Assembly: GCA_025352125.1 (NCBI GenBank)
Contig: JANXTZ010000058.1
Coordinates: 1 to 64,000, forward strand
Length of the DNA: 64,000 nt
DNA from: Deinococcales bacterium
GTDB lineage: Bacteria > Deinococcota > Deinococci > Deinococcales > JAAFIG01
Reading direction: 5' to 3'
Part shown: piece after piece, positions 1 through 64,000 of the stretch
Numbering within the stretch: position 1 is the stretch's first letter
How the letters are laid out: every line of letters begins with the position of its first letter
Notes under the pieces: generated by a model
The model's database searches: none
Told to the model about the DNA's origin: nothing
The model's input: only the letters and a program-made list of their open reading frames with translations
Program-made: the position numbers and the translations under genes

Positions 1-139
1 CAGGCAGAGGTTGGGGCAGTTTGTGCGTAAGACGTTGAGTTTCTCGAAGCGTTGGGATTTGCATGTGGCGAGGTTGAAGTTGTTCGTGCATCGGTATAAT
101 TTGGAAATTGCGGAAAACATTCTAAAGTAAGCCACTACC
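1..139 (+). mobile_element. Right end of an IS1-family insertion sequence
   Basis: The window opens inside an insertion sequence. A transposase reading frame ends at 130, and the sequence at 131-139 (GCCACTACC, reverse complement GGTAGTGGC) resembles the conserved GGT..TG terminus of IS1-family inverted repeats. From 140 onward an unrelated gene (xisI) is in register, so the element boundary is placed at 139. The left end lies outside the window, so neither the paired repeat nor the target duplication can be checked. Confidence 0.65.
2..130 (+). CDS. IS1-family transposase, C-terminal end (partial)
   Basis: Only the last 42 codons are present, read in frame 2 to TAA at 128-130. The residues RLGQFVRKTLSFSKRW followed by a short basic and aromatic tail match the C-terminus of IS1-type (InsB-like DDE) transposases, which carry the motif R-L-x-R-K-T-x-x-F-S-K. 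The enzyme would catalyse transposition of its own element. The frame continues directly into the xisI remnant after the stop, so the insertion left the two genes in the same phase. Identification rests on the short motif alone; the rest of the protein is outside the window. Confidence 0.65.
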   Translation, partial: RQRLGQFVRKTLSFSKRWDLHVARLKLFVHRYNLEIAENILK

Positions 140-376
140 CATGATCGTTATCAAGTGCTTTTAAACGGCTGGACAGACTTAAAGCGTTCGTTTAGTATCG
201 TTGCTCAAATTGATATTCGTGATGGTTTGATTTGGTTGCAGCAAGACAATACTGACCTCGAGTTGGCAAATTGTTTGATTGAGCGCGGGATTCCAAAGGA
301 AAGAATTGTTTTGGGTTTTCATGCGCCGTATAAGCGTGGTTTAAACGGTTTTGGTACGGGTGAAAGCACAAGTTAG
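140..376 (+). pseudogene. xisI: xisI-like gene truncated by IS1 insertion
   Basis: The remnant reads HDRYQVLLNGW, then a VAQIDI segment, LIWLQQDNTDLELA and IPKERIVLGFHAP. This is the C-terminal two thirds of XisI-family proteins, which usually pair with a XisH nuclease-like partner and were first described as fdxN-element excision factors in cyanobacteria. The N-terminal roughly 35 residues are missing: upstream of 140 is the end of an IS1-type element with an in-frame stop at 128-130. GTG at 155 could begin a 73-residue product, but this lacks the start of the fold and a ribosome site. The likely interpretation is a disrupted gene. It overlaps the end of irrE tail to tail. Confidence 0.7.
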
Positions 377-1134
377 GGTTTTAATTCTCGAGTTTCCTTC
401 TCTGGCACTGTGAACACCACAAAAACCACATTCCCTTCTGGGTGCGCGTCCACGACAGCTTTCATTTTCTTGCCGCTTCTGAACGGAATGTAGCTTTCAT
501 CCGTCAGTGGCAATCCAGTCTCGAGCGCCACATGGGCTGGGTGGTCTTCGGGAATGATCGTGCCGTTACTTAACGGGTAGCGCATTTCGCTGCTGCGGGC
601 GCTAAATTCGACCTCCAGCATGTTGCCTTTGGAGCGAAGCACGCCGACAATCGCTTTGCCTTCCAAACTTTGCGCCAGAACTACGCAGGCGGCGGGTCGT
701 GAAATGGTAAAACTTTTGACGATGCGCGGTATCGCCCTTGCGCCTCGTCCGTATTTTTGCAGCAGTGCCTCGAGTTCGGCTTCTGGAACGAGAATGGCGC
801 TTGCGCCGACGTTGCACAGTATTTCGATGGCTTCCTCGAGATCGTCGCCCTGATACGCGTCGTGCAAGTCCGAGAGCAAATCAACGTCCGCCAAAATTAA
901 GGCGTGTGTGACTTCGTGCGCCATTGTGAAGCGTTGCCGCTCGAGGGTCACGGTTTTGGAGATAAAGATCACGTTGCGGTTTGGATCAAACGCGCCGTCC
1001 TTGTCGCCCAAATCGCCGTACTCGAGTTTCGCGCCTATCGCGGCGGCAAGGTCGAGTGGTTCTCGGGCGGGGTGTGAAAGGTTGAACTCGGCAGCGAGTT
1101 CGCGCACTCGGGTTTTGTGCTCAAATAAGACCAA
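373..1134 (-). CDS. irrE: IrrE/PprI, zinc metalloprotease of the radiation response
   Basis: IrrE (PprI) is the Deinococcus protease that cleaves the repressor DdrO after DNA damage. From the TTG at 1134 the protein has 253 residues. The zinc site is HEVTH (His73, Glu74, His77), with Glu104 at the spacing of the third ligand. It sits in the diagnostic stretch ERQRFTMAHEVTHALIL followed by DLLSDLHDAYQG. A helix-turn-helix-like middle and a GAF-like end containing YIPFRSGKKMKAVVDA follow. The frame stays open to 1185, but that segment is the ddrO terminator hairpin. TTG with AGGTG five bases upstream is therefore preferred. It lies just downstream of ddrO on the same strand. Confidence 0.88.
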   Translation of the reverse strand: MVLFEHKTRVRELAAEFNLSHPAREPLDLAAAIGAKLEYGDLGDKDGAFDPNRNVIFISKTVTLERQRFTMAHEVTHALILADVDLLSDLHDAYQGDDLEEAIEILCNVGASAILVPEAELEALLQKYGRGARAIPRIVKSFTISRPAACVVLAQSLEGKAIVGVLRSKGNMLEVEFSARSSEMRYPLSNGTIIPEDHPAHVALETGLPLTDESYIPFRSGKKMKAVVDAHPEGNVVFVVFTVPEKETRELKP

Positions 1135-1147
1135 GACAGCACCTCGA

Positions 1148-1182
1148 AATAAAAATGGGAACGGATTTGAAACCCGTTCCCA
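1148..1182 (-). terminator. Intrinsic terminator between ddrO and irrE
   Basis: On the minus strand, TGGGAACGGGTTT and AAATCCGTTCCCA form a 13-pair stem with one G-T wobble and a minimal loop, followed by TTTTTATTT. It lies 20 bases past the ddrO stop and before the irrE start. It should end ddrO transcripts and make irrE depend on read-through or its own promoter. Confidence 0.75.
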
Positions 1183-1202
1183 CACGTTACCTTAATTTTG
1201 CT

Positions 1203-1592
1203 TTACTCGAGGATGCGTTTTAAATTTCTGTAAATGTCGTACCAGTCTTCTTTGGTTTGTGGGCGCTTGCCGCGAAGTTCGATGCGTGAAAGGCTCGAGA
1301 CCCAATCGGGGGTGATGTGTCCGCCGAGAACTGGGTCGGCGAGCAAGTCTGCCAAGCCTTTTGGCAGGGCGCTGTCGCTGGCATCGCCGTAAAATTCGAC
1401 GGGGGCGAGCAGGTCATTGACGCTGAGGTCGTAGGCGGCTGCCAGGGTTTGCAGCGTCTCGAGGCTTGGGTTGGTGCGTCCACGCTCGAGGTCGCTGAGG
1501 TACGGGATGCTGATGCCAGCGATTTCGGAGACATCTTTGAGGCGTTGTCCGCGTTCGCTTCGGAGTTCGCGCAGTCGTTCGTGTAATTTCAT
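1203..1592 (-). CDS. ddrO: DdrO, XRE-family repressor of the DNA damage regulon
   Basis: DdrO represses the radiation/desiccation response genes of Deinococcus until it is cut by IrrE. The 129 residues match the family's usual length. The N-terminal XRE helix-turn-helix (about residues 7-60) contains [15 protein letters not shown] and [17 protein letters not shown]. The C-terminal dimerisation region contains [20 protein letters not shown] and [12 protein letters not shown], all recognisable from D. radiodurans DdrO. A strong ribosome site (GGAGGA) precedes ATG. A promoter overlapping a perfect inverted repeat at 1651-1669 suggests autoregulation. It is followed by a terminator and irrE, and is divergent from the ddrA-like operon. 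Confidence 0.93.
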
Positions 1593-1650
1593 AATTCCTC
1601 CTTTTGATTTTGTCCCGCGCTGGACGAAGAATGAGCTACTTTTGCCTGGA

Positions 1651-1679
1651 GTTAAATGTTGTATTTAACCCCTTGTGAA
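1651..1679 (-). promoter_or_regulatory. ddrO promoter with overlapping palindrome (candidate autoregulatory operator)
   Basis: Read on the minus strand, TTCACA (1674-1679) and TTTAAC (1651-1656) are separated by 17 bases. The -10 region lies within a perfect 7-5-7 inverted repeat, GTTAAAT-GTTGT-ATTTAAC (1651-1669). The 17-base core TTAAATGTTGTATTTAA has the length and TTA...TAA ends of the Deinococcus radiation/desiccation response motif (TTATGTC-n3-GACATAA), but only about 8 of 14 half-site positions agree. Binding by DdrO is inference. Confidence 0.5.
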
Positions 1680-1725
1680 TTTGAGCGCGGTTTTCTGCTC
1701 CTGGCGAGTGTAGCACCTGAATCGT

Positions 1726-1742
1726 TTACGGTCAAGACGTAA
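1726..1742. promoter_or_regulatory. Candidate radiation/desiccation response motif upstream of the ddrA-like operon
   Basis: The 17-mer TTACGGTCAAGACGTAA has inverted TTACG/CGTAA ends. Its right half GACGTAA differs from the canonical GACATAA by one base. Ten of 14 half-site positions match overall. It lies 13 bases upstream of the -35 box at 1756, in the intergenic region shared with ddrO. Position and neighbours favour DdrO binding; the match alone would occur by chance roughly 20 times in a window this size. Confidence 0.45.
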
Positions 1743-1755
1743 AACTGGCTGACGC

Positions 1756-1784
1756 TTGAACCAATCACGAAATTATGCTATAAT
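1756..1784 (+). promoter_or_regulatory. Promoter of the 1844 gene / ddrA-like operon
   Basis: TTGAAC (1756-1761), a 17-base spacer and a perfect TATAAT (1779-1784) form a strong vegetative promoter. The predicted leader of about 53 bases ends in AGGAGG seven bases before the ATG at 1844. Confidence 0.75.
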
Positions 1785-1843
1785 CGTAATTGTAGAAGAT
1801 GATTTAGTCAGCACGCCATCAAGACGCTCCCAGGAGGCACACC

Positions 1844-2203
1844 ATGCGAATTCTCGAAACGATTGCCCAATCACTGCGCACCCAAAAAATTCACCCAACC
1901 CAGGTTTTCAACGCCCTGATTGAACTCGAGAATGCGGGCGGGGTCACGACCATGTTTGAACTCGAGTACCGCCTGTCGAGGCTGGTTCGTGCCATGTTTG
2001 AACGCAACGACCAAGCCATCAAAATTGCGGAGGCATGGCTCGAGGCGACCCGAGCTTACCTGGATGAATTTGGTCAAACCGCGCCCGTTGTCGCGCCGCC
2101 TGTCGCACTTCACCGCCGAATTCTCGAGGTGGTCAATGCCGCCAGGAAGGTTCGACCTGTGGCGACCAAAGCCAGCAGCGTCTCTCGAGGAGGTGCGCTG
2201 TAA
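1844..2203 (+). CDS. Unknown protein, first gene of the ddrA-like operon
   Basis: I do not recognise this 119-residue protein. It is mostly predicted helix with acidic and basic faces (ALIELENAGGVTTMFELEYRLSRLV, split here as two helices around VTTM), then a Pro/Ala/Val-rich hinge (TAPVVAPPVALHR) and a basic tail. No membrane segment or signal peptide is visible. AGGAGG precedes the ATG and a strong promoter lies upstream. Its TAA overlaps the ATG of the ddrA-like gene by one base, so the two are almost certainly co-translated. A role as partner or regulator of the annealing protein is inference from this coupling. Confidence 0.75.
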   Translation: MRILETIAQSLRTQKIHPTQVFNALIELENAGGVTTMFELEYRLSRLVRAMFERNDQAIKIAEAWLEATRAYLDEFGQTAPVVAPPVALHRRILEVVNAARKVRPVATKASSVSRGGAL

Positions 2204-3096
2204 TGGCTGACACGACCTGCCAGCATCTTTCGCCCGTCGGCGGTTGGTGCAGATTGCAAAACAATTTCAAATGTCCCGCGTCAAAAGGACGCATTGGATG
2301 CCCAATGCCAAACGTTGTCAACCTCGAGGAACGCATTTCAGAGCGTCTCGAGCGCCAGGAGAACACAATGATCGCCCAACACCAAGCGTTTGCCAACCTT
2401 GCTTTGCCTTTTCCAGCCTCAGAGATTGACTGGAAGATCGAAACCATTTCAAAAGACGCCCGCCGTGCGCTGGTGCGCCCCGTGTTGCCCGCTCGAGCAA
2501 TAATTGATCGCCTCGATGCCGTGCTTGGTGCAAGTGGCTGGTCTGACAGTTATGAAACCCACCCGAGTGGTCAAGCCAAATGCAAACTCTCGGTGCTTGG
2601 GGTCAGCAAAGAGGACGTGTCAGAACGCGCCACCAACTGGAAAGATGCCCTGAATGAGAGTCTAACCCGTGCCGCCAGCAAATTTGGCATCGGACGCACC
2701 CTGGAGCGCATCAACGCCGTCTGGGTTGACTATGACGAGAACACTGCGCGAATCCTCGAGCAACCCATGCTGCCCGATTGGGCAATCTCGAGCGAACCTG
2801 TTAGTGTGCTCAGATCACTCGAGCCTCGAAAATTTGTTGCGCCGCAAACGCCAGTCAGCGCGGAAGTGGTTTCAAGCGATTCAAATATCTCAAGGATGCC
2901 AGCCCCAAATCCCGACAAACTCCTGGCAGAATTGATTCGTAGCGTGCGCGAATTACCGGGCGGCGAGAACGCCCTGAAGCGCATCATTCAACGTCAAAAC
3001 TGGCAACGCATCTCGCAGGAAGACAAGCGCAAACTGTACAGCGAATTGCGCCGCACCCACCGCGAACTTTCTGAACGCCTGCCGCAAAGCGCTTGA
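2203..3096 (+). CDS. DdrA/Rad52-like single-strand annealing protein
   Basis: DdrA is a Rad52-family protein that protects and anneals DNA ends in Deinococcus. This 297-residue protein carries the core at about residues 66-180: LALPFPASEIDWKI, AIIDRLDAVLGASGW, LSVLGVSKEDVS and AASKFGIGRTLE. The order and spacing match DdrA/Rad52_Rad22 proteins. It differs from D. radiodurans DdrA in an extra N-terminal region with Cys6, His8, Cys16, Cys24 and Cys33, possibly metal-binding. It also has a longer C-terminal tail ending in a basic helical stretch. GAGGAGGTG lies nine bases before the ATG, which supports the long start. It is coupled to the 1844 gene and divergent from ddrO, which suggests damage control. 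Confidence 0.72.
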   Translation: MADTTCQHLSPVGGWCRLQNNFKCPASKGRIGCPMPNVVNLEERISERLERQENTMIAQHQAFANLALPFPASEIDWKIETISKDARRALVRPVLPARAIIDRLDAVLGASGWSDSYETHPSGQAKCKLSVLGVSKEDVSERATNWKDALNESLTRAASKFGIGRTLERINAVWVDYDENTARILEQPMLPDWAISSEPVSVLRSLEPRKFVAPQTPVSAEVVSSDSNISRMPAPNPDKLLAELIRSVRELPGGENALKRIIQRQNWQRISQEDKRKLYSELRRTHRELSERLPQSA

Positions 3097-3104
3097 ACAT
3101 TAAA

Positions 3105-3191
3105 GTGCGACGGTACGTTAATCGCATACCGTCGCACCCAGGAGGGATGAACAAGATTAGTATAGCGAGCTTTTCAAAAGCCAATGGTTAA
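3105..3191 (+). other. Perfect hairpin and 14-codon ORF between ddrA-like and UDG genes
   Basis: GTGCGACGGTA (3105-3115) and TACCGTCGCAC (3127-3137) form an 11-pair perfect stem with an 11-base loop but no T-tract. It is followed by AGGAGGG and ATG at 3147, opening a 14-codon frame that ends at TAA 3189-3191. The strong ribosome site is unusual for a random short frame. A leader peptide or processed mRNA end is possible; no function can be assigned. Confidence 0.35.
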
Positions 3192-3248
3192 ATTTCACAC
3201 CGGAACTCGAGACCCGCGCCAGACGAGGTGCTCGAGTTAAACTTTTTT

Positions 3249-3917
3249 ATGGGTTTAGAAAAATTGAATTTAGAGTTGATTGCTTGTACCAAATGCCCCA
3301 GGTTGGTCGAGTGGCGCGAACGGGTCGGGTGCGAGAAACGGGCGGCGTACAAAGACCAAACGTACTGGGCAAAACCCGTTCCTGGCTTTGGCGACTCAAA
3401 TGCTCGAGTTTTAATTCTTGGACTTGCCCCAGGGGCACACGGCAGCAACCGAACGGGCAGAATGTTCACGGGCGATTCGAGTGGAAATTTCTTGTACCCA
3501 GCGCTTCACCGTGCGGGTTTTGCCTCAAGCGCAGTTTCGGTCAGCCGTGATGACAAACTCGAGTTGTTTGACTGCTACATCACCGCCGCAGGTCGTTGCG
3601 CCCCGCCCGACAACAAGCCCACACCACTTGAGCTTCACAACTGTAGACCTTGGTTGACCCAAGAACTCGAGTTGTTGCCGAACGTGTGCGTGATCCTGGC
3701 GCTCGGGAAAATCGCCCATGACACGATGCTCGAGTTTTACGGTTTGCAAAAATCCAAACATCCCTTTGGTCACGCACTCGAGTACCTGCTGCCTGACGGA
3801 AAATTACTGCTCGACTCGTACCATGTTTCGCAACAAAACACGCTGACGGGAAAGCTTACGGTTGAAATGTTCGACGCGATTCTCGAGCGAGCCAAAACAC
3901 TGATGGAGCAATCCTGA
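3249..3917 (+). CDS. Uracil-DNA glycosylase, family 5 (UdgB type)
   Basis: Family-5 enzymes remove uracil, hypoxanthine and related bases from DNA and carry a 4Fe-4S cluster. The motif GLAPGAHGSNRTG (residues 58-70) with FTGDSSG is diagnostic. The C-terminal motif is SYHVSQQNTLTGKLT, where family members usually have HPS; the substitution P to V is slightly unusual. Cys13, Cys16, Cys117 and Cys132 fit the cluster ligands. From ATG 3249 the length is 222 residues; GTG at 3228 would add seven. It lies downstream of the ddrA-like gene and overlaps the next gene at the stop codon, consistent with a small repair operon. Confidence 0.85.
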   Translation: MGLEKLNLELIACTKCPRLVEWRERVGCEKRAAYKDQTYWAKPVPGFGDSNARVLILGLAPGAHGSNRTGRMFTGDSSGNFLYPALHRAGFASSAVSVSRDDKLELFDCYITAAGRCAPPDNKPTPLELHNCRPWLTQELELLPNVCVILALGKIAHDTMLEFYGLQKSKHPFGHALEYLLPDGKLLLDSYHVSQQNTLTGKLTVEMFDAILERAKTLMEQS

Positions 3918-4507
3918 TTCGTGCAATTTGCTTTGATTTTGACGGCACGCTCGCCAGGTTTTGCGGTGATCTGAACGCATTGTCAATGCACTTGAACCTT
4001 CAACTTGGACTCAAGGATTTTTCACCCGCGACCCTGCAAAAACTCAGCACCACATTTCGTTCTTTCGAGTACGCGCCCGAACCCGTCACGCTCGAGTCTG
4101 CGACCCTCAAAACGATGGCGGCGCTTGAGATGACGCCAAACGGCAACGTGACCGATATTTGCCAAGCCTTCATTCGAGATTACGCGGCACAGATGAGACT
4201 TTTGCCCAACGCGCTCGAGATGCTCAAGTATTTTGGTCACTTGCCCAAAGCCATCATCACCAACGGACCAAGTGACGTGCAACGCGCCGCCATCAATGCT
4301 TTGAAACTCGAGCATCATTTTCAAACCATTGTGGTGTCTGGTGATGCGGATGTCTGCATCGCCAAGCCGAACCCCCGCATTTTTCAGATTGCTTGCGAAA
4401 GACTTGGGGTGGAACCTCGAGACACCCTGATGATCGGAGACAGATTAGACCTGGATGTCGAAGGTGCGATTGCTGCGGGATTACAAGCCAGCCACAAACC
4501 TGAATAA
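3917..4507 (+). CDS. HAD-superfamily phosphatase with a non-AUG start
   Basis: The HAD nucleophile motif FDFDGTLA is encoded at 3932-3955, upstream of the first conventional start (TTG 3980, ATG 3986). The in-frame codons before the motif are ATT 3917, CTG 3914 and ATC 3911, so translation must begin at a rare codon. GGAG at 3905-3908 is correctly spaced for ATT 3917, which overlaps the UDG stop (TGATT). The remaining motifs are present: ITNGPSDVQ (motif II), KPNPRIF (Lys) and MIGDRLDLDVEGA (acidic pair). At 196 residues it resembles phosphoglycolate phosphatase/YjjG-like small-molecule or nucleotide phosphatases. The substrate is unknown. Confidence 0.75.
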   Translation: MRAICFDFDGTLARFCGDLNALSMHLNLQLGLKDFSPATLQKLSTTFRSFEYAPEPVTLESATLKTMAALEMTPNGNVTDICQAFIRDYAAQMRLLPNALEMLKYFGHLPKAIITNGPSDVQRAAINALKLEHHFQTIVVSGDADVCIAKPNPRIFQIACERLGVEPRDTLMIGDRLDLDVEGAIAAGLQASHKPE

Positions 4508-4540
4508 CTTTGGTTCGAGACTCGAGATTGACTGAGATTG

Positions 4541-5566
4541 TTACGCCCAGCGAACCTCAACGCGTTGTCGAGTTTCGGCGCTTTCAATGGCTGCAAAAAC
4601 CATTGCCAGACTTTTGATGTTGTCGCTTGAGGGTGTGGCTTGCGCAGTCTGCTGCTCGAGGTTGGAGATAAAATCCCGAATCAAACCCTCGTGACCTGTG
4701 GCAATTTGCTGCTCGAGTTTTGGGAGATTTGTTTCGCTGTGCTTGGACAGAAACCCGCCCGTTTCGCTGACGATTTGCGCTCTCGAGTCTTCACCACCGT
4801 CCCAGCGCAGCGTGCCGCGCGTGCCAATAATTCGCCAATCGCTTTCCCAGGTCGTGTGAAAGCCCTCACTGCACCACGAGCCACGGTAGTTAAAAACCAC
4901 GCCGTTCGTCATTTCAAAAATACAATGCGCACTCGAGCCTTGCGCGTACCAGGAATCTTTGGGATTAAACTCGAGACAGTAGACGTTGAGCGGGTCGCAG
5001 CCCGTCATAAATCGAGCTTGGTCAAAAGTATGAATCGCCATGTCGAGCAACAGCACATGCGCCATCGAGTCACGGAAACCGCCAAAGTGAGCGCCAATAA
5101 AAAAATCGCTGTTGACGGTTGTGACCGCGCCAATCTGTCCCGACTCGAGAAACTGTTTGACCTGCAAAATATTGGGGTCAAAACGCCTGTTCTGCATGAC
5201 CGAATGCGTTAATTTCGCGTTTTGTGCCGCATTAACCATTTCGATGGCTCGAGCCAAATTATCCGCCAGTGGTTTTTCGCCAAGTACGTGTGCCCCGTGT
5301 TTGAAAGCCTCGAGTGCCACGTCGTAATGGGCGTCGGGAATGCTGACATCAAAAACCACATCGGCTTTGGTTTTCTCGAGCATTTCACTCAAACTCGAGC
5401 CGATTTGAACGTTCTCGAGCTTGAATTCTGTGGCTCGGGTTCTGGCATTTTCGGGGAAAAGATCGACCAAACCCACCAACTCGAGCTTTGGAATCTCGAG
5501 CGCGACCCGAATCCATTCTTTGGACATTGCGCCGCAACCGACCAAAACGACTTTGAATTGTTTCAT
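4541..5566 (-). CDS. Gfo/Idh/MocA-family NAD(P)-dependent oxidoreductase
   Basis: The 341-residue protein has an N-terminal Rossmann fold (VVLVGCGAMSKEW) and the family's catalytic Glu-Lys-Pro motif in VLGEKPLAD. The C-terminal alpha/beta domain includes VNSDFFIGAHFGGFRD and LLDMAIHTFDQARF. Family members oxidise or reduce sugars, inositols or related cyclic substrates; the specific substrate cannot be read from sequence. A TATGCT box lies six bases before the ATG, predicting a leaderless mRNA. It stands alone and converges on the HAD gene. Confidence 0.88.
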   Translation of the reverse strand: MKQFKVVLVGCGAMSKEWIRVALEIPKLELVGLVDLFPENARTRATEFKLENVQIGSSLSEMLEKTKADVVFDVSIPDAHYDVALEAFKHGAHVLGEKPLADNLARAIEMVNAAQNAKLTHSVMQNRRFDPNILQVKQFLESGQIGAVTTVNSDFFIGAHFGGFRDSMAHVLLLDMAIHTFDQARFMTGCDPLNVYCLEFNPKDSWYAQGSSAHCIFEMTNGVVFNYRGSWCSEGFHTTWESDWRIIGTRGTLRWDGGEDSRAQIVSETGGFLSKHSETNLPKLEQQIATGHEGLIRDFISNLEQQTAQATPSSDNIKSLAMVFAAIESAETRQRVEVRWA

Positions 5567-5666
5567 GGGTCGAGCATAGCAAAAGGCTGGGATTGAATCT
5601 GGTTGCTCAGTTTGAAATCAGGCTCGGGTCTTAAAGTGTTGTGATTTCAGTTTGAGGTGAATGCGG

Positions 5667-6170
5667 ATGGCAACGAGCCAGAAAAAGTTTGATTATGCCT
5701 TGGATTACTCGGGTCTGGATTTGCGTCAACAGCCCGAGTTGTACCGTGTCGGCGTCGGTGAACAGGGTGTGCTGCTGGTTCAGCCTTACAAATCCGAATT
5801 GCTGCCCCACTGGCGTTTTGCCACGCCCGAACTGGCTGAACAGAGCAGTGTCACCATTTATAAAATGTTTTTGGCGTACCTCGAGGTGGATGATTTTGTC
5901 GGTGCGGATATGGCACGAAAATTCTTGCAAATGGGTTTTACCAGGGCTAGGCGCTACGCCAATCACAAGGGTGGTAATAAGTACGATGGACCGGTGCCGA
6001 AAGCCTTGAAGGGGCAAAGTGGTGCGCATGGACGCCTCGAGTTACCGCGTACCCCTGAAGACCCAGTGAAGGCCAAATCGGCAGAGATTTTTAAGGTGCG
6101 TTGGGCGCAAGCTGAGGCGGATCCAAAATACGCCGCCATGAAGCTCGAGCACAAAAAACTGTACGGCTGA
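5667..6170 (+). CDS. DUF4385-family protein
   Basis: The 167-residue protein has the hallmark sequence of DUF4385: DYSGLDLR, PELYRVGVGEQGVL, VQPYKSELLPHWRF, then DFVGADMARKFLQMG and TRARRYANHKGG. The family is spread among bacteria and some phages and has no established function. GAGGTGA at 5654-5660 is correctly spaced for the ATG at 5667 and too close to the ATG at 5661, so the shorter start is chosen. It appears monocistronic. Confidence 0.82.
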   Translation: MATSQKKFDYALDYSGLDLRQQPELYRVGVGEQGVLLVQPYKSELLPHWRFATPELAEQSSVTIYKMFLAYLEVDDFVGADMARKFLQMGFTRARRYANHKGGNKYDGPVPKALKGQSGAHGRLELPRTPEDPVKAKSAEIFKVRWAQAEADPKYAAMKLEHKKLYG

Positions 6171-6319
6171 TGAGGATGAATTCTAAGTTGTGCTGGACGG
6201 TGTTTTGATTGCCCAAGAGATGAGGCTGAAGGCAATCAGAATTTATCCAGAGTTCATCTTGAACTAATGAATTACGTGTATAACAGAATATGGAGATGGT
6301 TTTCCAATCTGGAGGTTTT

Positions 6320-6799: not shown

Positions 6800-6814
6800 C
6801 GTTCAAAGCGATAA

Positions 6815-6847
6815 CAAGAAACCCCCGTCTCGAGACCCGAGCGGGGG
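6815..6847 (-). terminator. Terminator downstream of glyA, possibly bidirectional
   Basis: CCCCCG (6822-6827) pairs with CGGGGG (6842-6847); the loop contains CTCGAG. On the minus strand it is followed by TTTCTTGTT, which fits termination of glyA. It also lies just after the 6320 gene on the plus strand. Confidence 0.6.
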
Positions 6848-6871
6848 ATTTCACATTCAGATTTTGATGGC

Positions 6872-13463: not shown

Positions 13464-15974
13464 TTACAATTCAGTGTTGTCTGTTTCGTTCTCAGAAATC
13501 TCTTCAGCATCGCTCGAGATTTCAGTTGTTTCAGTTGTCCCGTCCGCCATCAAGCTTTCCTCTTGCTTGATCGAGAAGGCGCTGGTCACACGGTCGCTGT
13601 CGCCCATGCGCATGACTTTGACGCCTTGGCTCGGGCGTCCGTAACTCGAGATTTGCTCGATTCTGGTGCGAATCGCCACGCCGTTGGCGCTAATCACCAT
13701 CAATTCTTCGTCGCCGCCAACCCGCTCGAGTGACACGAGTTTGCCGGTCTTGTCGGTGACTTTGAGCGTGATGACGCCCTGTCCGCCGCGTCCTTGCAGT
13801 GGGTATTCTTGAATGGCGGTGCGTTTGCCGTAGCCATTTTCGGAGATGGTCAGCAACTCGCCGTCATCATTGGCGCTGACTTTGGTCATGCTGACCACCT
13901 CGTCACCGTCGCGCAAGCGAATGCCGATCACGCCTTGGGTGGCGCGTCCGGTGGCACGCACGTCGTCTTCGCCAAAGCGGATGCTTTGCCCGTCACGTGT
14001 GGCAAGTACGACGTGCTCATTGGTGTTCAGGATCGAAACGTGAATCAGATCGTCGTTCTCGAGCAGGTTGATGGCGATCAAACCAGAGCTGGTCATGTTG
14101 CCGTATTCCTTGATTTCGGTTTTCTTGACAATGCCCTGGCGCGTGCAAAAGGCGAACGATCCCTCCTGCTCGAGGTCTTTGATCGACAGAATCGACTTGA
14201 CGTTCTCATCGTCTTTAAGCGGCAGCACATTGCGAAGGTGCGCCCCCTTGGCATCGCGTCCGGCTTCGGGCAATTCAAAGATTTTCTCGCGGTAGACGCG
14301 TCCCTTGTCGGTGAAGAACAGCAGGTAATCGTGGGTGCTGCCAACGATCAGGTTGGTGTTGGCGTCCTCGTCGCGCAACTTGCCAGAATTTGCGCCGCGC
14401 CCACCACGTCCCTGTGAACGGTAAGCCTCGAGCGTCGTGCGCTTGATGTAACCACCCTTGGTCACGGTAATCACCATGTCCTCAATGGCAATCAGGTCTT
14501 CTTTATTGATGTCTTCGGACAGGTCGGTAATTACGGTGCGGCGCTCGTCGCCGTACTTGTCACGAATGATCGTGATTTCTTTTTTGACCTCGTTCCAGAG
14601 TTTGCCCTCGTCTGCCAGAATCGACTCGAGAAAACCGATGGTCTCTAAAAGTGCGTTGTATTCGTCGTTCAATTTGCCGCGCTCGAGTCCGGTCAGACGT
14701 TGCAAGCGCATGTCCAGAATAGCTTGGGCTTGAATTTCCGAGAAGCTGAAACGTGCCATCAATCCGTCTTTGGCTTCCGCGCCCGTTTGCGCGGCGCGAA
14801 TAATCCGAATGATCTCGTCGATGTTGTCAAGTGCAATCAGCAGTCCCTCGAGAATATGGGTGCGCTCTCGGGCTTTTTTCAGATCGTACCTGGCGCGGCG
14901 GGTAACCACGTTTTTGCGGTGATCCAGGAACAGCGTCATGCCTTCTTTGAGTGCCAATACCTTTGGTGCGCCATTGACAATTGCCAAGTTGATGATGTTG
15001 AAACTGGTTTGCAATTGCGTGTGCTTGTAAAGTTGGTTCAAGACCAAATCTGGCAGCGTGCCGCGTTTGAGTTCGATCACAATGCGAACTGGCGTGGTGC
15101 GATCTGATTCGTCGCGCAGGGCGGCAATATCAGGGATTTTGCCCTCGCGGTACTGCGCCGAAATGGTGGTCAGCAGATTGGTTTTGTTAACCTGATACGG
15201 AATTTCGGTAATCACGATCTGGCTGCGACCCTTAATTTCCTCAATTCTTGCTTTACCGCGTACCCGAATGCTGCCTTGACCGCTCGAGTACGCTTCACGG
15301 ATGCCTTTTTTGCCGAGCCGTCCACCGGTTGGGAAATCTGGTCCTGGCACAATTTTCATCAGATCATCCAAGTTGATCTCTGGATTGCGGATGATCTCGA
15401 GCAGACCATTGCAAATTTCGGTCAGGTTGTGCGGCGGAATGTTGGTCGCCATGCCCACGGCAATCCCGACCGCGCCGTTGACCAGCATGTACGGAAAGCC
15501 ACCAGGCAGCACGGTTGGCTCTTCGGTGGTCTCGTCAAAATTCGGTTTGAAATCCACCGTCTCTTTTTCGATGTCCTCGAGCATCACCTCGGCGGCTCGG
15601 GTCATGCGGGCTTCGGTGTACCTGTAGGCGGCGGCAGGGTCGCCGTCGATGCTGCCGAAGTTGCCTTGACCGTCCACGACTGGGTAGCGCAAGTTCCAGG
15701 ATTGCGCCATGCGAACCATCGCCTCGTAAATTGGGCTGTCGCCGTGCGGGTGGTATTTTTTGATGACCTCACCGACCACACCCGCGCTTTTTTGGTGCTT
15801 GCGTCCTGGCGAAAGCCCCTCTTGAAGCATGGCGTACAGAATGCGGCGCTGCACGGGTTTCAAACCGTCGCGCACGTCGGGCAGCGCACGGTCCACGATT
15901 GTGGACATGGCGTAATTGATGAATGCGGTTTTGACTTCATCGGTAATTTCGACAGGTATGACGGCGTTTGACAT
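13464..15974 (-). CDS. gyrA: DNA gyrase subunit A
   Basis: GyrA cuts and rejoins DNA to introduce negative supercoils together with GyrB. At 836 residues it has the winged-helix/tower core with catalytic Tyr119 ([10 protein letters not shown]). The quinolone region [20 protein letters not shown] has Ser80 and Glu84 at the E. coli Ser83/Asp87 positions, the quinolone-sensitive type. The C-terminal pinwheel contains a GyrA-box-like QGRGGRG. The final 25 residues form an acidic Ser/Thr/Glu tail. GGAGGA precedes the ATG. gyrA belongs to the DdrO regulon in Deinococcus, and a candidate operator overlaps the -35 box at 16103-16119. Confidence 0.96.
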
Positions 15975-20235: not shown

Positions 20236-20262
20236 GTCGCTCGAGTCGCAAACTCGAGCGAC
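20236..20262. terminator. Convergent-gene terminator hairpin with CTCGAG in both arms
   Basis: GTCGCTCGAGT and ACTCGAGCGAC form an 11-pair perfect stem with a five-base loop between the molybdoenzyme gene and the convergent Uma2 gene. T-tracts are short. Confidence 0.55.
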
Positions 20263-36389: not shown

Positions 36390-36655
36390 ACTCGAGCCAG
36401 AGACTTTTACGGATTTGCTTGAGAAAATGCAACCACAATATGTTGTCAAACTCGAGAAATTACCGTGCTCGAGGGTGAAGCGATTCTGCCCGTCAGGTGC
36501 GTGTTAGAATCAAGAACACAAGGTTCACCCCTGTAAAATCCATCGATTCTGTCAGCAGTTCACGCTTCCATTTACACAAGCCATAAGGTTATATTGCACT
36601 CGTCCCAAACCCAAACCCCGATTGAACTCGAGGGAAATCTAGCGGAGGTGAACGA
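36390..36655 (+). other. hppA upstream region
   Basis: This gene-free 266-base interval carries several CTCGAG sites and, at its end, the hppA expression signals: TTATATT near 36589 and GGAGGTG at 36644-36650. No stable hairpin or short gene is seen. Confidence 0.5.
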
Positions 36656-51629: not shown

Positions 51630-52814
51630 ATGAAGAAACGTATTTTGTTGACGGCAGCCTTGGCGGCAGGTGTGTTCGTTGGTGCGGATGCCCAAACCAA
51701 AGGCACGATCAAGATTGCCAGCCAGACCCCACTTTCGGGCGGTCAATCGAACCTGGGAACAGCCATCAAGAACGGTGCCGATATGGCAATTTCTGAAGAG
51801 AAGCGCCTGATCGAAGCTTACGGTTACAAGGTTGTTTATCAACCAGAAGACGATCAGGCGACCGCCAACGTCGGTGTTGCCAACGCCAACCGTTTGATCA
51901 ACGATCCTGACATTTTGGGCGTTGTCGGTCACCTCAACTCGGGCGTCGCAATCCCCTCGAGCGAAGTCTACGCCAAGGTCAACTTGACCATGGTCAGCCC
52001 TGCGAACACCAACCCACGCGTCACAGACCGTCTGTCCACCGCCCAAGTCACCAACCGGATTTGCGGTCGTGACGATGTGCAAGGACCAGTCGGCGCTGAC
52101 TTCGTGGTCAATGTTCTCAAAGCCAAGCGCATTTACGTTCTGAACAACAAGACCGCTTACGGCGAAGGCATTGCCAACGCATTCGCGGCACGTGCCAAGC
52201 AACTCGGCGCAAAGGTCTTGGTCGAAGCCGGTCAGGAAGCCGCCGACACCGATTTCAGCTCGTTCATCAACAAAGCCAAAGCCGACAAGCCAGACGCCAT
52301 TTACTTTGGTGCGATTTACACCGAGGCTGCCCCAATGCTCAAGCAGCTTCGTCAAGCTGGCTTGAACACCCCGCTCGTCGGTGGCGACGGCTTCGACGGT
52401 CAGGACCTTCAGAACACCGCAGGCGCTGACAACATGAAGAACATTTACTTCACCACCACTGCCGTGCCAATCAACCTCTTGCCAGCCGCCAAAGCGTTTG
52501 CCAAGAAGTACAAGACCAAGTACGGCACCGACCCAGAAGGCTACAGCGCCTATGGATACGATGCCGCCCGCGTGGTCATCCGTGCGATTGCCGCTGCCCT
52601 CAAAGCCAACAACGGCAACAAGCCAGAGCGCTTGGATGTGGCAAAGCAGGTTCGTAACGTCACCTTCAACGGTGTGACTGGTAAAATTGCCCTGAACGCA
52701 CGCGGCGACCTGAAAGTTGCCAAGTATGTCGTGGTTGCCGCGCAACCTGATTACAACAACAACAAAGTCATCAAGAGCATCACCTTCAATGCTCCAGAAC
52801 CCGAGATGAAGTAA
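51630..52814 (+). CDS. livJ: Branched-chain amino acid ABC transporter, binding protein
   Basis: The 394-residue protein has a signal peptide (KKRILLTAALAAGVFVGADA) and the type I periplasmic binding fold with QTPLSGGQSNLGTAIKNGAD and VVGHLNSGVAIPSSE. VSPANTNPRVTD and a C-terminal lobe with YSAYGYDAARVVI follow. It captures leucine, isoleucine, valine or similar amino acids. AAGGAG precedes the ATG and a strong terminator follows, so it is expressed above the downstream livHMGF. One CTCGAG occurs in the gene, as expected for a highly expressed gene here. Confidence 0.93.
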   Translation: MKKRILLTAALAAGVFVGADAQTKGTIKIASQTPLSGGQSNLGTAIKNGADMAISEEKRLIEAYGYKVVYQPEDDQATANVGVANANRLINDPDILGVVGHLNSGVAIPSSEVYAKVNLTMVSPANTNPRVTDRLSTAQVTNRICGRDDVQGPVGADFVVNVLKAKRIYVLNNKTAYGEGIANAFAARAKQLGAKVLVEAGQEAADTDFSSFINKAKADKPDAIYFGAIYTEAAPMLKQLRQAGLNTPLVGGDGFDGQDLQNTAGADNMKNIYFTTTAVPINLLPAAKAFAKKYKTKYGTDPEGYSAYGYDAARVVIRAIAAALKANNGNKPERLDVAKQVRNVTFNGVTGKIALNARGDLKVAKYVVVAAQPDYNNNKVIKSITFNAPEPEMK

Positions 52815-52833
52815 TTCAACGCTAAAGTAATCT

Positions 52834-52864
52834 TGAGGGGTGGGGAAATCCACCCCTCATTTTG
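52834..52864 (+). terminator. Terminator between livJ and livHMGF
   Basis: TGAGGGGTGG and CCACCCCTCA form a 10-pair perfect stem with a six-base loop, followed by TTTTGTT. It should limit read-through to the permease genes. Confidence 0.85.
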
Positions 52865-53145
52865 TTAGGCTCGGGTTTTTGTACGCTCGAGCCATCCAAA
52901 TCGCAAGCCAACAAAAGACATTCAAACTCGAGGTGGTTGGTGTGCTCGAGACTGATTGCTGGGCTTTCTATTTTCGCTATTCTTGTTTGAACCCCAAAGC
53001 AGCTCGAGCTTTTGATGTGGTGAAGCTCTGGCGTGTTAAAATTCAGCAGAATCCACAAAGAACCTAACGTTCGTTCAAGTTGGTCAGGCTCGAGATCGCA
53101 ACACTCGGGTTTTTGGTTTAAAGAGAGGAGTGATGATACCCACGA
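52865..53145 (+). other. livJ-livH interval
   Basis: These 281 bases have no clear gene but several CTCGAG sites. Near the end, GAGGAG precedes ATG 53132, opening a nine-codon frame that overlaps the livH start. The ribosome site is better spaced for this frame than for livH, so re-initiation is possible. A separate promoter for livH was not clearly seen. Confidence 0.4.
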
Positions 53146-54087
53146 ATGCAGCTCTTTATTGAAACCCTGCTCAGCGGTCTGGCACTCGGTCTGGTCTATT
53201 CGGTCATTGCGCTTGGTTACACGATGGTTTACGGTGTACTCGAGCTGATCAATTTCGCCCACTCAGAAATTTTTATGTTTGGCGGCATTGTCGGCGTCGA
53301 ATTGCTGCTTGGCGTGTTGACCAAAACCACCTGGCATCCATTGTTGCAACTGGTCTTTGCATTGATTGTTGGCGCGGCTGCGTCTGGTGTGCTTGCCGTG
53401 ACCGTCGAAAGGGTGGCGTATCGACCGTTACGGTTGCGAGGTGCGCCCAGGTTGGTTCCGCTGATTTCCGCCATCGGCATGAGCTTGTTTTTGCAAGACA
53501 TCGTGCGCCTGGTGGAGAGCTTGTTCGGTAATTTCAACAGACCATTTCCAAGTTACATCAAGGGCGACGAACCAGATTTTTTTGCGATCACCCATCCTCT
53601 GGTCAGTGGCGCAACCATCTCAAACACGACCTTGACCATTTTTGTGGTCGGTGCAATCATGCTGGCGGGCTTGACCTATTTTGTCAATTACACCAAAACC
53701 GGTCGCGCCATCCGTGCCGTTGCCCAAGACCAAAGCACCTCGAGCCTGATGGGCATCAACGTCAACAACATCATCACCGTGACATTCTTGCTTGGTGGCG
53801 CTTTGGGTGGTGTGGCGGGTGTGCTCTACGCTTTAAAGTTCGGGACACTCAATCCGTACAGCGGTTTCTTGCCAGGACTCAAAGCCTTCACGGCTGCCGT
53901 CCTCGGCGGCATCGGCAGCATTCCAGGTGCAATGCTCGGCGGTGTGGTGCTGGGGCTTCTCGAGCAACTTGCGGCGCAGTACATCAGTTCATCTTACAAA
54001 GACATTATTGCCTTTGGACTGCTGATTTTAATCTTGATTTTTAGACCATCGGGCTTGCTTGGTCGTAAAGTATCGGAGAAAGTATGA
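53146..54087 (+). CDS. livH: Branched-chain amino acid ABC transporter, permease LivH
   Basis: The 313-residue membrane protein has LVYSVIALGYTMVYGVLELINF (first helices), VAYRPLRLRGAPRLVPLISAIGM and the coupling-loop region RAIRAVAQDQSTSSLMGI. It ends in GLLILILIFRPSGLLG. It forms the channel with LivM. Its stop overlaps livM by four bases (ATGA). The ATG is about 13 bases from the nearest GAGGAG. Confidence 0.93.
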   Translation: MQLFIETLLSGLALGLVYSVIALGYTMVYGVLELINFAHSEIFMFGGIVGVELLLGVLTKTTWHPLLQLVFALIVGAAASGVLAVTVERVAYRPLRLRGAPRLVPLISAIGMSLFLQDIVRLVESLFGNFNRPFPSYIKGDEPDFFAITHPLVSGATISNTTLTIFVVGAIMLAGLTYFVNYTKTGRAIRAVAQDQSTSSLMGINVNNIITVTFLLGGALGGVAGVLYALKFGTLNPYSGFLPGLKAFTAAVLGGIGSIPGAMLGGVVLGLLEQLAAQYISSSYKDIIAFGLLILILIFRPSGLLGRKVSEKV

Positions 54088-55340
54088 GTCAGCTTGTCAG
54101 ACCAAAACGGGACTTCACGATTCCCGTGGTTGCTTTTACGCTTATCACATTTTTCCTAAAATTCTTTGTTTTCAAGGGAATCACCTTCGTTGACAGCATG
54201 ATCTTCTTAACATTTATCTCGAGTTTGTATTTTCTGGTGACGTTTCCAATGAACAAATACGTTCAAATCGCGCTTGGAATTTTGGTTTTGTTTGTTGGAA
54301 TCCCTTTGATTGGCTTTCAGAATACCTCGAGCATCAATGTTGTGATTGACATCGCTATTTATGCGGCATTGGCGCTGGGTTTAAATATCGTCGTTGGTTT
54401 TGCGGGTCTGCTCGATTTGGGTTATGTTGCTTTTTTTGCAGTTGGCGCTTATCTTTGGGCAATTTTTGGCTCGGGGCAAGCCACCGAACTGTTTGGTTGG
54501 CAACTTCCAGAAAATGGTTTCTTTTTAATTGCGATAGTTGCAGTCTTGGTCGCGGCTCTGTTTGGTGTGCTGCTGGGTTTACCAGTCTTGCGCCTCAAAG
54601 GTGATTACTTGGCAATTGTGACGCTCGGTTTGGGTGAAGTGATTCGGGTGATCGCCAACAACAACCCTGCTGGATTGACCAAGGGTTCGGTTGGTATTGA
54701 CAGCATTCAACAACCGCTTCACACGTTCACCAATTCTCTGGGATCTGACGGTTACAAATGGCAATCGGTGGTCTTTTATGTGATCGTTTTGGCGGTCATC
54801 GCAGTCGCCATTTTGGTCACCAATCGCCTCGATCAAAGCCGCATCGGTCGGGCTTGGACCGCCATTCGTGAAGATGAAATTGCCGCTCAGGCGATGGGCA
54901 TTCCTCTGGTCGCAACCAAACTTGTGGCGTTTGCCACGGGCGCGAGTTTCGCTGGCATCATGGGCACCATCTTTGCCGCAAAACAGAGTTTTGTTGATCC
55001 AGCCTCTTTTGATGTCAACCAATCCATCGGCGTTCTGGCAATGGTGGTGCTCGGCGGACTGGGTTCGATTCGTGGCGCGGTGGTCGGTGCTGCCGTGGTG
55101 ACAAGCCTCAACCTTGTGGTGCTGCCCACATTGGCAATCGAATTTAACAACCTGCGTCAGAGTGGTGCCTTAAATCTGCCTCCGCAGTTCGAGGTGTCCA
55201 AATATCAACGCCTGATTTACGGCATCATCCTCATCATCATGATGATTTACCGCTCGCAAGGGCTTGTGCCAGCCAGCCGCAAGCACATTGAAGTGGACGA
55301 TGCCCACGCCGGACAGGGCGCCATGCAGGGAGGCGACTGA
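54084..55340 (+). CDS. livM: Branched-chain amino acid ABC transporter, permease LivM
   Basis: The 418-residue protein has an extra hydrophobic N-terminus of about 80 residues. The family core follows: ALGLNIVVGFAGLLDLGYVAFFAVG, LRLKGDYLAIVTLGLGEVIRV and the coupling region GRAWTAIREDEIAAQAMGI (shown in part), then VVLGGLGSIRGAV. It overlaps livH by four bases, and its last base is the first of the livG start. Confidence 0.92.
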   Translation: MSQLVRPKRDFTIPVVAFTLITFFLKFFVFKGITFVDSMIFLTFISSLYFLVTFPMNKYVQIALGILVLFVGIPLIGFQNTSSINVVIDIAIYAALALGLNIVVGFAGLLDLGYVAFFAVGAYLWAIFGSGQATELFGWQLPENGFFLIAIVAVLVAALFGVLLGLPVLRLKGDYLAIVTLGLGEVIRVIANNNPAGLTKGSVGIDSIQQPLHTFTNSLGSDGYKWQSVVFYVIVLAVIAVAILVTNRLDQSRIGRAWTAIREDEIAAQAMGIPLVATKLVAFATGASFAGIMGTIFAAKQSFVDPASFDVNQSIGVLAMVVLGGLGSIRGAVVGAAVVTSLNLVVLPTLAIEFNNLRQSGALNLPPQFEVSKYQRLIYGIILIIMMIYRSQGLVPASRKHIEVDDAHAGQGAMQGGD

Positions 55341-56158
55341 TGCTTCTGGATGTCAATGCGGCGCGAAAAATCTTTGGTGGTCTGGTTGCGGTCAACGACG
55401 TGACCTTACAAGTTCCAGAGAAAGCCATCATCAGCGTGATCGGACCGAACGGTGCGGGTAAAACCACGTTTTTCAACATGATTACCGGCATTTACCAACC
55501 CGACGGTGGCACGATCAATTTCAACGGTTCAAGCATTGTGGGTCTACGCCCAGACCAAGTGGTCGAACGTGGTATCGCCAGAACCTTTCAGAACATCAGG
55601 TTGTTCGGCGCGATGACGGTGCTCGAGAATGTCATGGTGGGCAGGCATGTGCGCAGCAACACGCGCTACATCGATGCGATCTTTCACACCAAACGCTTCC
55701 GTGACGATGAAAACTCGAGCATCACCAGGGGCATGGATTTGCTGCGCTTTGTCGGGCTTGACGCCAAACGCAACGAACTCGCTGCCAATCTGCCTTACGG
55801 CGAACAGCGCCGGCTCGAGATTGCCAGGGCGCTGGCGACCAGCCCAAAATTGATTTTGCTCGACGAACCCACCGCAGGTATGAACCCGAACGAGACAGAG
55901 GAAACCAAGCATCTGATTCGTCGCCTGCGGGACGAGGGCAACATCACCGTGGTCTTGATTGAGCACGACATGCGCGTGGTGATGACGATTTCGGACAATG
56001 TGACCGTGCTCGATTACGGCACCAAAATAGCCGAGGGTTTGCCTGCTGCCGTGCGTAGCAACCCCAAAGTGATCGAGGCGTATTTGGGCGCTGGAGCAGC
56101 GGCAGGCAATTTCGGACTCGAGAAAACCGAGCCAAAAAGCACAGGAGGTACAGCATGA
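55340..56158 (+). CDS. livG: Branched-chain amino acid ABC transporter, ATPase LivG
   Basis: The 272-residue ATPase has Walker A GPNGAGKTT, the LivG-specific ITGIYQPDGG and RTFQNIRLF. The signature region is LPYGEQRRLEIARAL and Walker B is LILLDEPTAGMNP, followed by IEHDM with the switch His. The C-terminus is extended by about 20 residues (GAAAGNFGLEKTEPKSTGG). It overlaps livF by four bases. Confidence 0.94.
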   Translation: MLLDVNAARKIFGGLVAVNDVTLQVPEKAIISVIGPNGAGKTTFFNMITGIYQPDGGTINFNGSSIVGLRPDQVVERGIARTFQNIRLFGAMTVLENVMVGRHVRSNTRYIDAIFHTKRFRDDENSSITRGMDLLRFVGLDAKRNELAANLPYGEQRRLEIARALATSPKLILLDEPTAGMNPNETEETKHLIRRLRDEGNITVVLIEHDMRVVMTISDNVTVLDYGTKIAEGLPAAVRSNPKVIEAYLGAGAAAGNFGLEKTEPKSTGGTA

Positions 56159-56886: not shown

Positions 56887-56903
56887 AACTCTACAAATCC
56901 TGT

Positions 56904-57055: not shown

Positions 57056-57116
57056 CACAGTATGTTGTGTTAAAATTCAACGTAATCGCATTCTCTGGTG
57101 TGTTAGTATTTTCTCA

Positions 57117-60317
<3,201 letters not shown>

Positions 60318-60335
60318 ACCCTCTATACTTTGAAC

Positions 60336-62403: not shown

Positions 62404-62534
62404 TGGCTCACCACGTTTTGATTGCGGCTCGAGTGGCTGTTTGGTTTCATAAATCAGTTTAACGCACAGAGGTAACAATTGGCAGTTGGCAATTTGGGTT
62501 TCTCGAGCTTGCAAAAACGGCGTAAACTTCAGAA

Positions 62535-63122
62535 ATGATCCCTGTCCCTCCTAACCCAGTGACCAAACCCGAAGCTCGAGTTCTTAAATTGCAGGGTTTG
62601 AAAGTTGTTTTTGTGGTTGCCGATGAGGTTGAAGACCTCGAGTATCACGTGCCAAGAATGCGGCTTCTCGAGGAGGGCGCGATGGTGGTGACGGCGGCGT
62701 TAAAACCTGGAACATATCTGGGAAAAAGTGGCTTGGGCTTGACGGCGGGTTTGGCAACGTCGGAATTGAGTGCCAACGATTTTGATGCGGTGGTTGTTCC
62801 TGGCGGCTGGGCACCCGACAAAATGCGGCGCGACCAGTACCTTTTAAAATTCTTGCGCGACATGAAAGCCAGTCACAAAATTCAGGCTTACATCTGCCAT
62901 GCCGGTTGGGTGGCTGCCAGTGCAGGGATTCTCGAGGTTGGACGACCGGTGACGGGCAGTTTGGGCATCAAAGATGACATGCTTGCCAGGGGGGCAGTCT
63001 GGCAGGACGTGGCGGCGTTTTGTGATGGCGATTTGGTCTGGGGTCGGGTGGTTGCAGACATTCCAGATTTTTGCCGTGAATTGGTGGCGGCGCTGGAAGG
63101 TTCGCGTTCAAACGAGTGCTAG
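62535..63122 (+). CDS. DJ-1/PfpI-family protein
   Basis: The 195-residue protein has LKVVFVVADEVEDLEYHVPRM with the family's acidic residue, and VVVPGGWAPDKMRRD. The nucleophile region is YICHAGWVAASAG, where the Cys is followed by His as in PfpI-type hydrolases. Relatives include stress chaperones, glyoxalases and glycation-repair enzymes. TAAACT lies six bases before the ATG, so the mRNA is probably leaderless. It overlaps the convergent ROK gene by 15 bases. Confidence 0.88.
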   Translation: MIPVPPNPVTKPEARVLKLQGLKVVFVVADEVEDLEYHVPRMRLLEEGAMVVTAALKPGTYLGKSGLGLTAGLATSELSANDFDAVVVPGGWAPDKMRRDQYLLKFLRDMKASHKIQAYICHAGWVAASAGILEVGRPVTGSLGIKDDMLARGAVWQDVAAFCDGDLVWGRVVADIPDFCRELVAALEGSRSNEC

Positions 63123-64000
63123 TTTTGGTGAATCCGCAACCTGCTGCGCCGCGACACAGGCAGCGCCAATCACGCCCGCGTCCGTGCCGAGATCGGCTTG
63201 GCGAATATTTACGGGTGCAAACTCGAGGGCATATTTGTTGGCGGCGGCTTGAATGCGGTCCAGAAAAAAACCGCCCGCCTCGGAGACGCCGCCGCCCAAA
63301 ACAAACACTTCGGGGTCAACGATCAATTGCAAATCGCAGAGCACCTGCCCAATACAGCTCGCGGCTCGGTCAATGATTTTTAACAAACTCGGGCTTCCGG
63401 TTCGAGCCTGTTGAAAGACCTCCAGGGTGCTGATGGGATGACCCACAATACGGCTGGCTTCTCGAGCGATGGCTGTTCCACTGGCAACATTTTCCAGTGA
63501 CTCAAACAGCCCTGCCCTTGTATGGGACGTACTGATATGTCCAATTTCGCCAGCGATGCCATGAAAGCCGCGCCAGATTCGGTTGTCTTGAATGATCGCC
63601 CCGCCAATGCCAGTCGATATGGTCAGAAAAACGCTCGAGTCGGCAAACCGTGCCGCACCGTAAAGATGTTCGGCGAGGGCGGCGGCTTTGGCATCATTCT
63701 CCAGCGCAATCGGTTTGCCAAAGCCTGCTGCCAGAGCGTCCCGAAGGGGTACATGTTCAAAGCCTGGAATGTTGAGGGCAATCCTCACGATGCCAGCCAG
63801 AACGTCAACGCTGCCTGGAGAACCCACGCCAATGGCTTTGATATTTGGCGCGAATTTCATGAGTTCATTTCCCAACTCGAGCATCGCCGCAATCACAGAC
63901 GCCGCGCCAGTTTGTGGGGTGGGTACAATCTGTTTCTCGAGGATTTTTCCGTTCATGACAATTGCGCCAGCAATCTTGCTGCCGCCAAGGTCAAGTCCGA
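63108..64000 (-). CDS. ROK-family sugar kinase, N-terminus cut by window edge
   Basis: The visible part has about 297 residues. Beyond the ATG at 63956 the frame continues to the window edge as GLDLGGSKIAGAIV, the phosphate-binding N-terminus of ROK kinases, so the true start lies outside. LENDAKAAALAEHLYGAA, STGIGGAII and FHGIAGEIGHI with the His metal ligand follow. The usual CxCGxxGCxE zinc motif is replaced by AGLFESLENVASG and has no cysteines. It may phosphorylate glucose or a related sugar. Confidence 0.85.
   Translation of the reverse strand, partial: GLDLGGSKIAGAIVMNGKILEKQIVPTPQTGAASVIAAMLELGNELMKFAPNIKAIGVGSPGSVDVLAGIVRIALNIPGFEHVPLRDALAAGFGKPIALENDAKAAALAEHLYGAARFADSSVFLTISTGIGGAIIQDNRIWRGFHGIAGEIGHISTSHTRAGLFESLENVASGTAIAREASRIVGHPISTLEVFQQARTGSPSLLKIIDRAASCIGQVLCDLQLIVDPEVFVLGGGVSEAGGFFLDRIQAAANKYALEFAPVNIRQADLGTDAGVIGAACVAAQQVADSPKLALV

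Follow-up and report, generated by a model that had tools for sequence, protein, structure and literature searches.

The CTCGAG word in the window and in its genome

The window, which comprises the whole 64,000-base stretch of DNA that was analysed, is marked by a single six-base palindrome. CTCGAG, which by symmetry reads on both strands, occurs 403 times within positions 1–64,000 (the first sites being at 257, 387, 520, 769, 835, 940, 1021 and 1206) while 17.2 copies are expected from a zero-order model of base composition. It is the most frequent of all 4096 hexamers in the window, and the next palindrome, AAATTT, is found 36 times. The mean spacing is 158 bp and the counts per 4 kb range from 13 to 36 throughout, as expected from the original prediction that the density is kept to the end of the window; its tally of 49 copies in bases 1–6000 was reproduced exactly upon recounting. 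The densest 1-kb stretches (35501–36500 and 39501–40500) hold 15 sites each. Only four pairs of sites are less than 15 bp apart: one at 20240–20258, with a separation of 13 bp, and the others at 26042/26051, 41421/41434 and 41434/41448. The largest CTCGAG-free gap (54332–55621, 1.3 kb) lies mostly within a branched-chain amino-acid permease gene (54084–55340, PF02653), and the second largest spans 0.9 kb (51962–52885). The gyrA gene (13464–15974, minus strand) was used to place the genome.

The genome to which the window belongs (G000; 4.53 Mb in 84 contigs, 92.5% complete) is equally dense, with 28,178 copies in 4,534,309 bases. This corresponds to 6.2 per kb or one per 161 bases and, by arithmetic, to about 3.7% of all bases. 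GAGCTC, which has the letters of CTCGAG reversed, is present in 9 copies in the whole genome. Over 334 kb, the ratio of observed to expected copies (O/E) is 23 relative to base composition and 31 relative to a first-order Markov model, such that counts outside the window are far from Markov expectation. A maximal-order Markov model, which predicts 332 copies in the window as compared to the 403 observed, is a poor null for this word since nearly all occurrences of CTCGA and TCGAG come from CTCGAG itself. The over-representation is confirmed and is larger than first claimed.

Genome-wide word tables were drawn from 734 kb of G000 and 866 kb of G006, a genome from a second genus. Many palindromes might have been equally enriched; instead, the other hexameric palindromes are depleted, with a median O/E of 0.15 in G000 and 0.25 in G006 as compared to 0.84–0.85 for non-palindromic hexamers. 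GGCC is present at 0.02 and 0.01 of expectation in G000 and G006, respectively, and CTAG at 0.06 in G000. Across these two genomes, 23–26 of the 64 hexameric palindromes fall below 10% of expectation. This avoidance, to which CTCGAG is the exception, presumably reflects restriction pressure. A longer word built around CTCGAG was considered and rejected as there is only a weak flank preference; the 8-mer extension GCTCGAGC was observed 39 times in the window against 52 expected.

Words that differ from CTCGAG by one base are near neutral (0.4–2.3 of expectation). The rarity of CTAG accounts for the low count of CTAGAG, and the three transition neighbours are in excess, which is expected from mutation leaking out of the large CTCGAG pool. 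CTTGAG, at 1.2–1.8 of expectation, is not depleted, which disfavours a drive by Vsr-type T:G repair.

Codon frames and non-coding DNA

The original prediction placed CTCGAG in all codon phases and in non-coding DNA, and attributed it to a pressure on DNA and not on protein. For this comparison, the genes were the longest frames without overlap, called mechanically and hence with some noise. In 334 kb of G000, CTC-GAG is the spelling used for 73% of 1431 Leu-Glu pairs, and the positions in the other two frames at which the protein permits CTCGAG are filled in 39% (280/715) and 42% (354/849) of cases. Measured against background synonymous codon use, the word is 14–23 fold above expected in each frame; when expressed as odds, it is about 30–50 fold over the synonymous expectation and similar in all three frames. 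Non-coding DNA is enriched by about 25–31 fold, and its density of 6.7 per kb compares with 5.95 per kb in coding DNA. Frame-independent filling was also observed in genomes G005, G006 and G007.

Frame occupancy and non-coding density bear out the first part of the prediction. The second part, that the pressure acts on DNA and not on protein, is supported by frame occupancy together with the spacing and ortholog comparisons presented below. The added suggestion that CTC leucine codons occur mainly before GAG was partly right: 43% of CTC codons precede GAG within a site.

Spacing of the sites

In all four genomes of the window's family (f1), CTCGAG pairs less than about 20–30 bp apart are rarer than under independence. 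The effect may be considered in terms of permitted Leu-Glu sites, by which coding opportunity is controlled. When such a pair lies 6–8 bp from another site, it is written CTCGAG in 14% of cases in G000 and 21% in G006; at 90–150 bp from another site, these values are 82% and 79%, respectively. The close-pair effect fades by 30–60 bp. Inverted hexamers, both in general and when GC-matched with a CG step, have no short-range deficit (0.94–1.38 at 9–30 bp), and the GC-matched inverted repeats show that the spacing rule does not stem from an avoidance of hairpins. At 100–300 bp, the counts are mildly under-dispersed (variance/mean 0.79–0.87), and 95% of bases are within 250 bp of a CTCGAG. The spacing points to a reader that has a footprint, or else to a regional function with diminishing returns.

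Turnover and CTCGAG-poor stretches

A comparison of G000 and G006 yielded 88 reciprocal best pairs of orthologs with 50% identity, in which 67% of four-fold sites differ. A permitted G006 site is filled with a probability of 0.75 if its G000 counterpart is filled and 0.52 if it is not. A further 289 G000 sites lie at places where the G006 protein no longer allows CTCGAG; the overall densities are nonetheless 6.10 per kb in G000 and 5.75 per kb in G006. Positions turn over under a steady density pressure, with some extra persistence at the level of individual sites.

Some stretches are poor in CTCGAG. From a reading of translations, these include an element (L219, 15.9–20 kb) that is AT-rich and encodes a tyrosine integrase-like protein, and two polysaccharide gene clusters (L051, 1–4 kb, and L178, 10–18 kb). 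CTCGAG is likewise scarce at locus L048, in the vicinity of a cytosine methylase gene. Incoming DNA evidently lacks the word at first and would gain it later. A search for RNA genes that might explain the poorest stretch (L206) returned no Rfam match.

Distribution across the phylum

The original assignment of the window to Deinococcota fits the GyrA comparison, in which the nearest named record was a metagenome-assembled genome labelled "Deinococcales bacterium" with 78% identity and 4.65 CTCGAG per kb. A survey of 111 genomes of the phylum revealed about 6–8 copies per kb in all four f1 genomes and in two genomes of the sister family (f2), and the f1 density holds from 45% to 60% GC. Two other f2 genomes have 3.6 per kb (G001) and only 0.3 per kb (G004). 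Within family f4, genera g10–g12, which to judge from size and GC are probably Meiothermus-like, have about 1.4–3.4 per kb, and the large genus g13, probably Thermus-like, has about 1.1 per kb or less. Most f5 genomes have 1–2 per kb. In sampled DNA, the O/E relative to base composition is 22–41 for f1 and the rich f2 genomes, 5–10 for g10–g12, about 4–6 with exceptions for f5, 2.6 for g13 and 0.9 for G004.

As an outgroup control, 79 gyrA-containing loci from other phyla have 0.124 CTCGAG per kb with an O/E of 0.69. One locus from a Bacillota metagenome-assembled genome (L266) contains TCCGGA 31 times in 22 kb (O/E 7.7) and is possibly a case of another iterated palindrome.

Candidate methylases and the XhoI-type endonuclease

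PaeR7I is an isoschizomer of XhoI. A methyltransferase of the M.PaeR7I type, with 53% identity to the annotated paeR7IM, was identified in g11 (both genomes), four g12 genomes and two f5 genomes. A second family, referred to here as A1 (for example, L001, L004 and L006–L010), is about 550 amino acids in length and composed of an N6_Mtase domain and an M.Eco57I C-terminal domain (M_Eco57I_C). Among the 18 g12 genomes, 14 have A1 only and four have the M.PaeR7I type only, with none having both and none having neither. This pattern of replacement suggests that A1 has the same target, CTCGAG. The four M.PaeR7I-type carriers may be one clade, and hence one event. A1 was rejected as a general cause, since the four g12 genomes in which it is replaced by the M.PaeR7I type are equally rich in CTCGAG.

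Across families f3–f5, the ratio of CTCGAG to GAGCTC is 5.6 in genomes with either methyltransferase and 1.6 in those without (p about 1e-11, uncorrected for kinship). Inside f5 alone, the corresponding ratios are 3.6 and 1.8 (p = 0.004, again uncorrected for kinship). The correlation is confounded by shared ancestry.

An XhoI-type endonuclease (PF04555) was identified in four of the 111 genomes, with one of the four copies broken, and is absent from the other 107, the genome of the window among them. Since this endonuclease is nearly absent, nearly all of these methyltransferases are solitary with respect to that endonuclease family. At L086–L088 (G012–G014), the endonuclease is paired with a PF01555-type methylase that is not of the M.PaeR7I type. 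At L089 (G108), where the broken endonuclease lies beside an intact M.PaeR7I-type gene, a restriction-modification system is in decay and leaves a solitary methylase. In f5, the surroundings of A1 are conserved among G083, G097 and G099 and include no XhoI-type endonuclease. The plasmid homologues of A1 are neighboured by an endonuclease-like gene, which had no Pfam match and did not reveal the specificity of A1.

Neither methyltransferase was found in the four f1 genomes, whose assemblies are 91–94% complete, in the f2 genomes or in the two g10 genomes. The M.PaeR7I-type search gave no match in G000 at E = 1e-15, and the G007 match has only 26% identity. Searches with PF02384, PF07669, PF01555, PF00145 and PF02086 identified several methyltransferases per f1 genome, none of which is common to all f1 genomes. 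A search with MT-A70 gave no signal anywhere, controls included, and carries no information. Two further candidates were rejected: the L047 methylase of G000 as a shared agent, since it is present in no other genome, and a PF01555 methylase of about 300 amino acids (L061–L065) as a general agent, since it is absent from f1 and f2. The latter is conserved in g10–g12 with 67–87% identity, and most of the f4 genomes that are rich in CTCGAG carry it as well. It is possible that each f1 genome has a separate, non-orthologous CTCGAG methylase, which is conceivable because replacement is seen in g12. A methylase was one of several possible roles named in the original prediction; the link is supported in the sister families and no such gene was found in the window's own family. 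As a separate observation, a cytosine-5 methylase of 639 amino acids in G000 (L049, 9437–11356) is apparently split by a long intein-like insertion between the two parts of its domain.

Comparison with known systems

The comparison with the highly iterated palindromes (HIPs) of cyanobacteria that was first proposed is supported, given a dominant palindrome that is genome-wide, frame-independent and kept across related genomes. Like HIP1 (GCGATCGC) and the alternative HIPs, one palindrome lies far above all others throughout the genome, in coding and non-coding DNA alike, and solitary methylases occur in some carriers, here as candidates in the sister families only. HIP1 is described as maintained by selection in work cited in PMC6604393. 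Unlike HIP1, CTCGAG is six bases long with no fixed 8-mer extension and is found in a different phylum. It reaches 6,200 copies per Mb as compared to about 500–2,500 per Mb for HIPs (PMC4390886), although the word lengths differ. In further contrast to HIPs, a close-pair exclusion is observed here, and a cognate methylase was not found in the strongest carriers. The CGATCG word itself is absent from the window and has an O/E of 0.00 in 734 kb of G000.

The closest precedent is a solitary (orphan) CTCGAG methylase in Nocardia, where the motif is enriched and clustered near dnaA (Blow et al. 2016, PMC4752239). The word and its enrichment are shared with the present case; the enrichment here, however, is genome-wide and near-uniform. 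The XhoI and PaeR7I restriction-modification systems recognize the same word and M.PaeR7I homologues are found in relatives, but the endonuclease and the M.PaeR7I-type methyltransferase are both absent from the genome of the window. In addition, a restriction site would be avoided, whereas CTCGAG is accumulated. Chi sites, DNA uptake sequences and KOPS are likewise short words over-represented by selection. These are typically oriented, non-palindromic and sparser. CTCGAG, being palindromic, cannot carry orientation. Thus, CTCGAG works like a HIP and is neither HIP1, since CGATCG is absent, nor part of an active XhoI/PaeR7I system. A literature search returned no paper on a CTCGAG HIP in Deinococcota, in keeping with the original prediction, although absence from the literature is not thereby proven.

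Interpretation

CTCGAG may best be considered as a highly iterated palindrome, present about once per 160 bp, that is selected, read by a protein and probably linked to methylation, a reading held with about even confidence. The word would be kept at its density by selection that acts on the DNA itself and is pervasive though weak, with a 2Ns of roughly 3–4 fitting the observed odds. Where a site already exists, another within about 20 bp is worth little or is excluded. The reader of the word would be a sequence-specific protein acting over a neighbourhood of tens of base pairs, and the marking step would most likely be solitary CTCGAG DNA methylation, as in the cyanobacterial HIPs. The genome-wide task served could be strand discrimination, the initiation of repair or recombination, or chromosome organisation. 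In the sister families, the putative marker is the M.PaeR7I-type methyltransferase without its endonuclease, or the second family that replaces it. Methylation is the likeliest candidate for the mark.

The mark could also be independent of methylation. An abundant nucleoid-associated, recombination or repair protein may bind CTCGAG directly, with the methylases of the sister families acting, for example in protection, on a motif that was already there. The lack of a methylase common to f1 and f2 favors such binding, as do the reach of the sites to nearly all bases and an exclusion zone of about 20–60 bp that resembles a footprint or diminishing returns. However, no candidate protein was identified, every genome in the cyanobacterial survey that had highly over-represented sequences also encoded one or more putative methylases for these (PMC4390886), and many of the sister genomes in this survey also carry a candidate methylase. 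Direct binding is the main alternative, if a tentative one. A particular form of it, in which CTCGAG is a methylation-independent docking site for a protein that acts in chromosome organisation or repair and has an exclusion zone spanning a few tens of base pairs, would make 3.7% of all bases a dense sequence-encoded scaffold; it is possible but similarly doubtful.

Neutral molecular drive would produce CTCGAG from one-off words with no benefit, either by methylation-directed or Vsr-like repair or by biased gene conversion, and has a precedent in Elhai's G-meC mismatch-repair model for HIP1 (PMC4390886). A steady gain that is independent of gene function agrees with drive, and slow accumulation predicts that islands that were probably acquired recently are poor in CTCGAG, as observed. 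In its single-mismatch (T:G) version, drive predicts a depletion of CTTGAG with the other neighbours untouched; the measured CTTGAG counts show no such depletion, and the one-off words as a set are near neutral or have a transition excess only. The close-pair exclusion, which is specific to CTCGAG, speaks against a drive acting on each site alone, as the site-autonomous version does not predict it. General biased conversion gives the same stationary pattern as selection, and neighbour counts alone do not separate the two. Overall, neutral drive is considered unlikely and has less support than selection on a mark that is read by a protein. A dense word might instead serve as a self-marker that tells own from foreign DNA in uptake or defence. 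Mobile or exchanged stretches are indeed poor in the word (the L219 integrase element and the L051 and L178 polysaccharide clusters), and the depletion of most other palindromes, with GGCC reduced to 1–2%, implies strong restriction pressure. Foreign islands would lack any lineage-specific word, though, and so do not discriminate, and known uptake sequences are longer and far sparser, and few of them are simple palindromes. A self-marker is very improbable.

Implications

The function of HIP1 has been an open question since 1995. The literature search found no HIP studies outside cyanobacteria. A selected, protein-read CTCGAG would provide an independent HIP-like system outside that phylum, with a new word and a several-fold higher density. 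Its relatives are graded, from near none through 2–3 per kb to 6 per kb, and form a natural comparison for HIP function, and two mutually replacing solitary methylases are offered for testing. The spacing rule distinguishes selection for a mark that a protein reads from a neutral build-up driven by repair. Isolates of the sister genera that have 2–3 sites per kb would make the question testable in culture.
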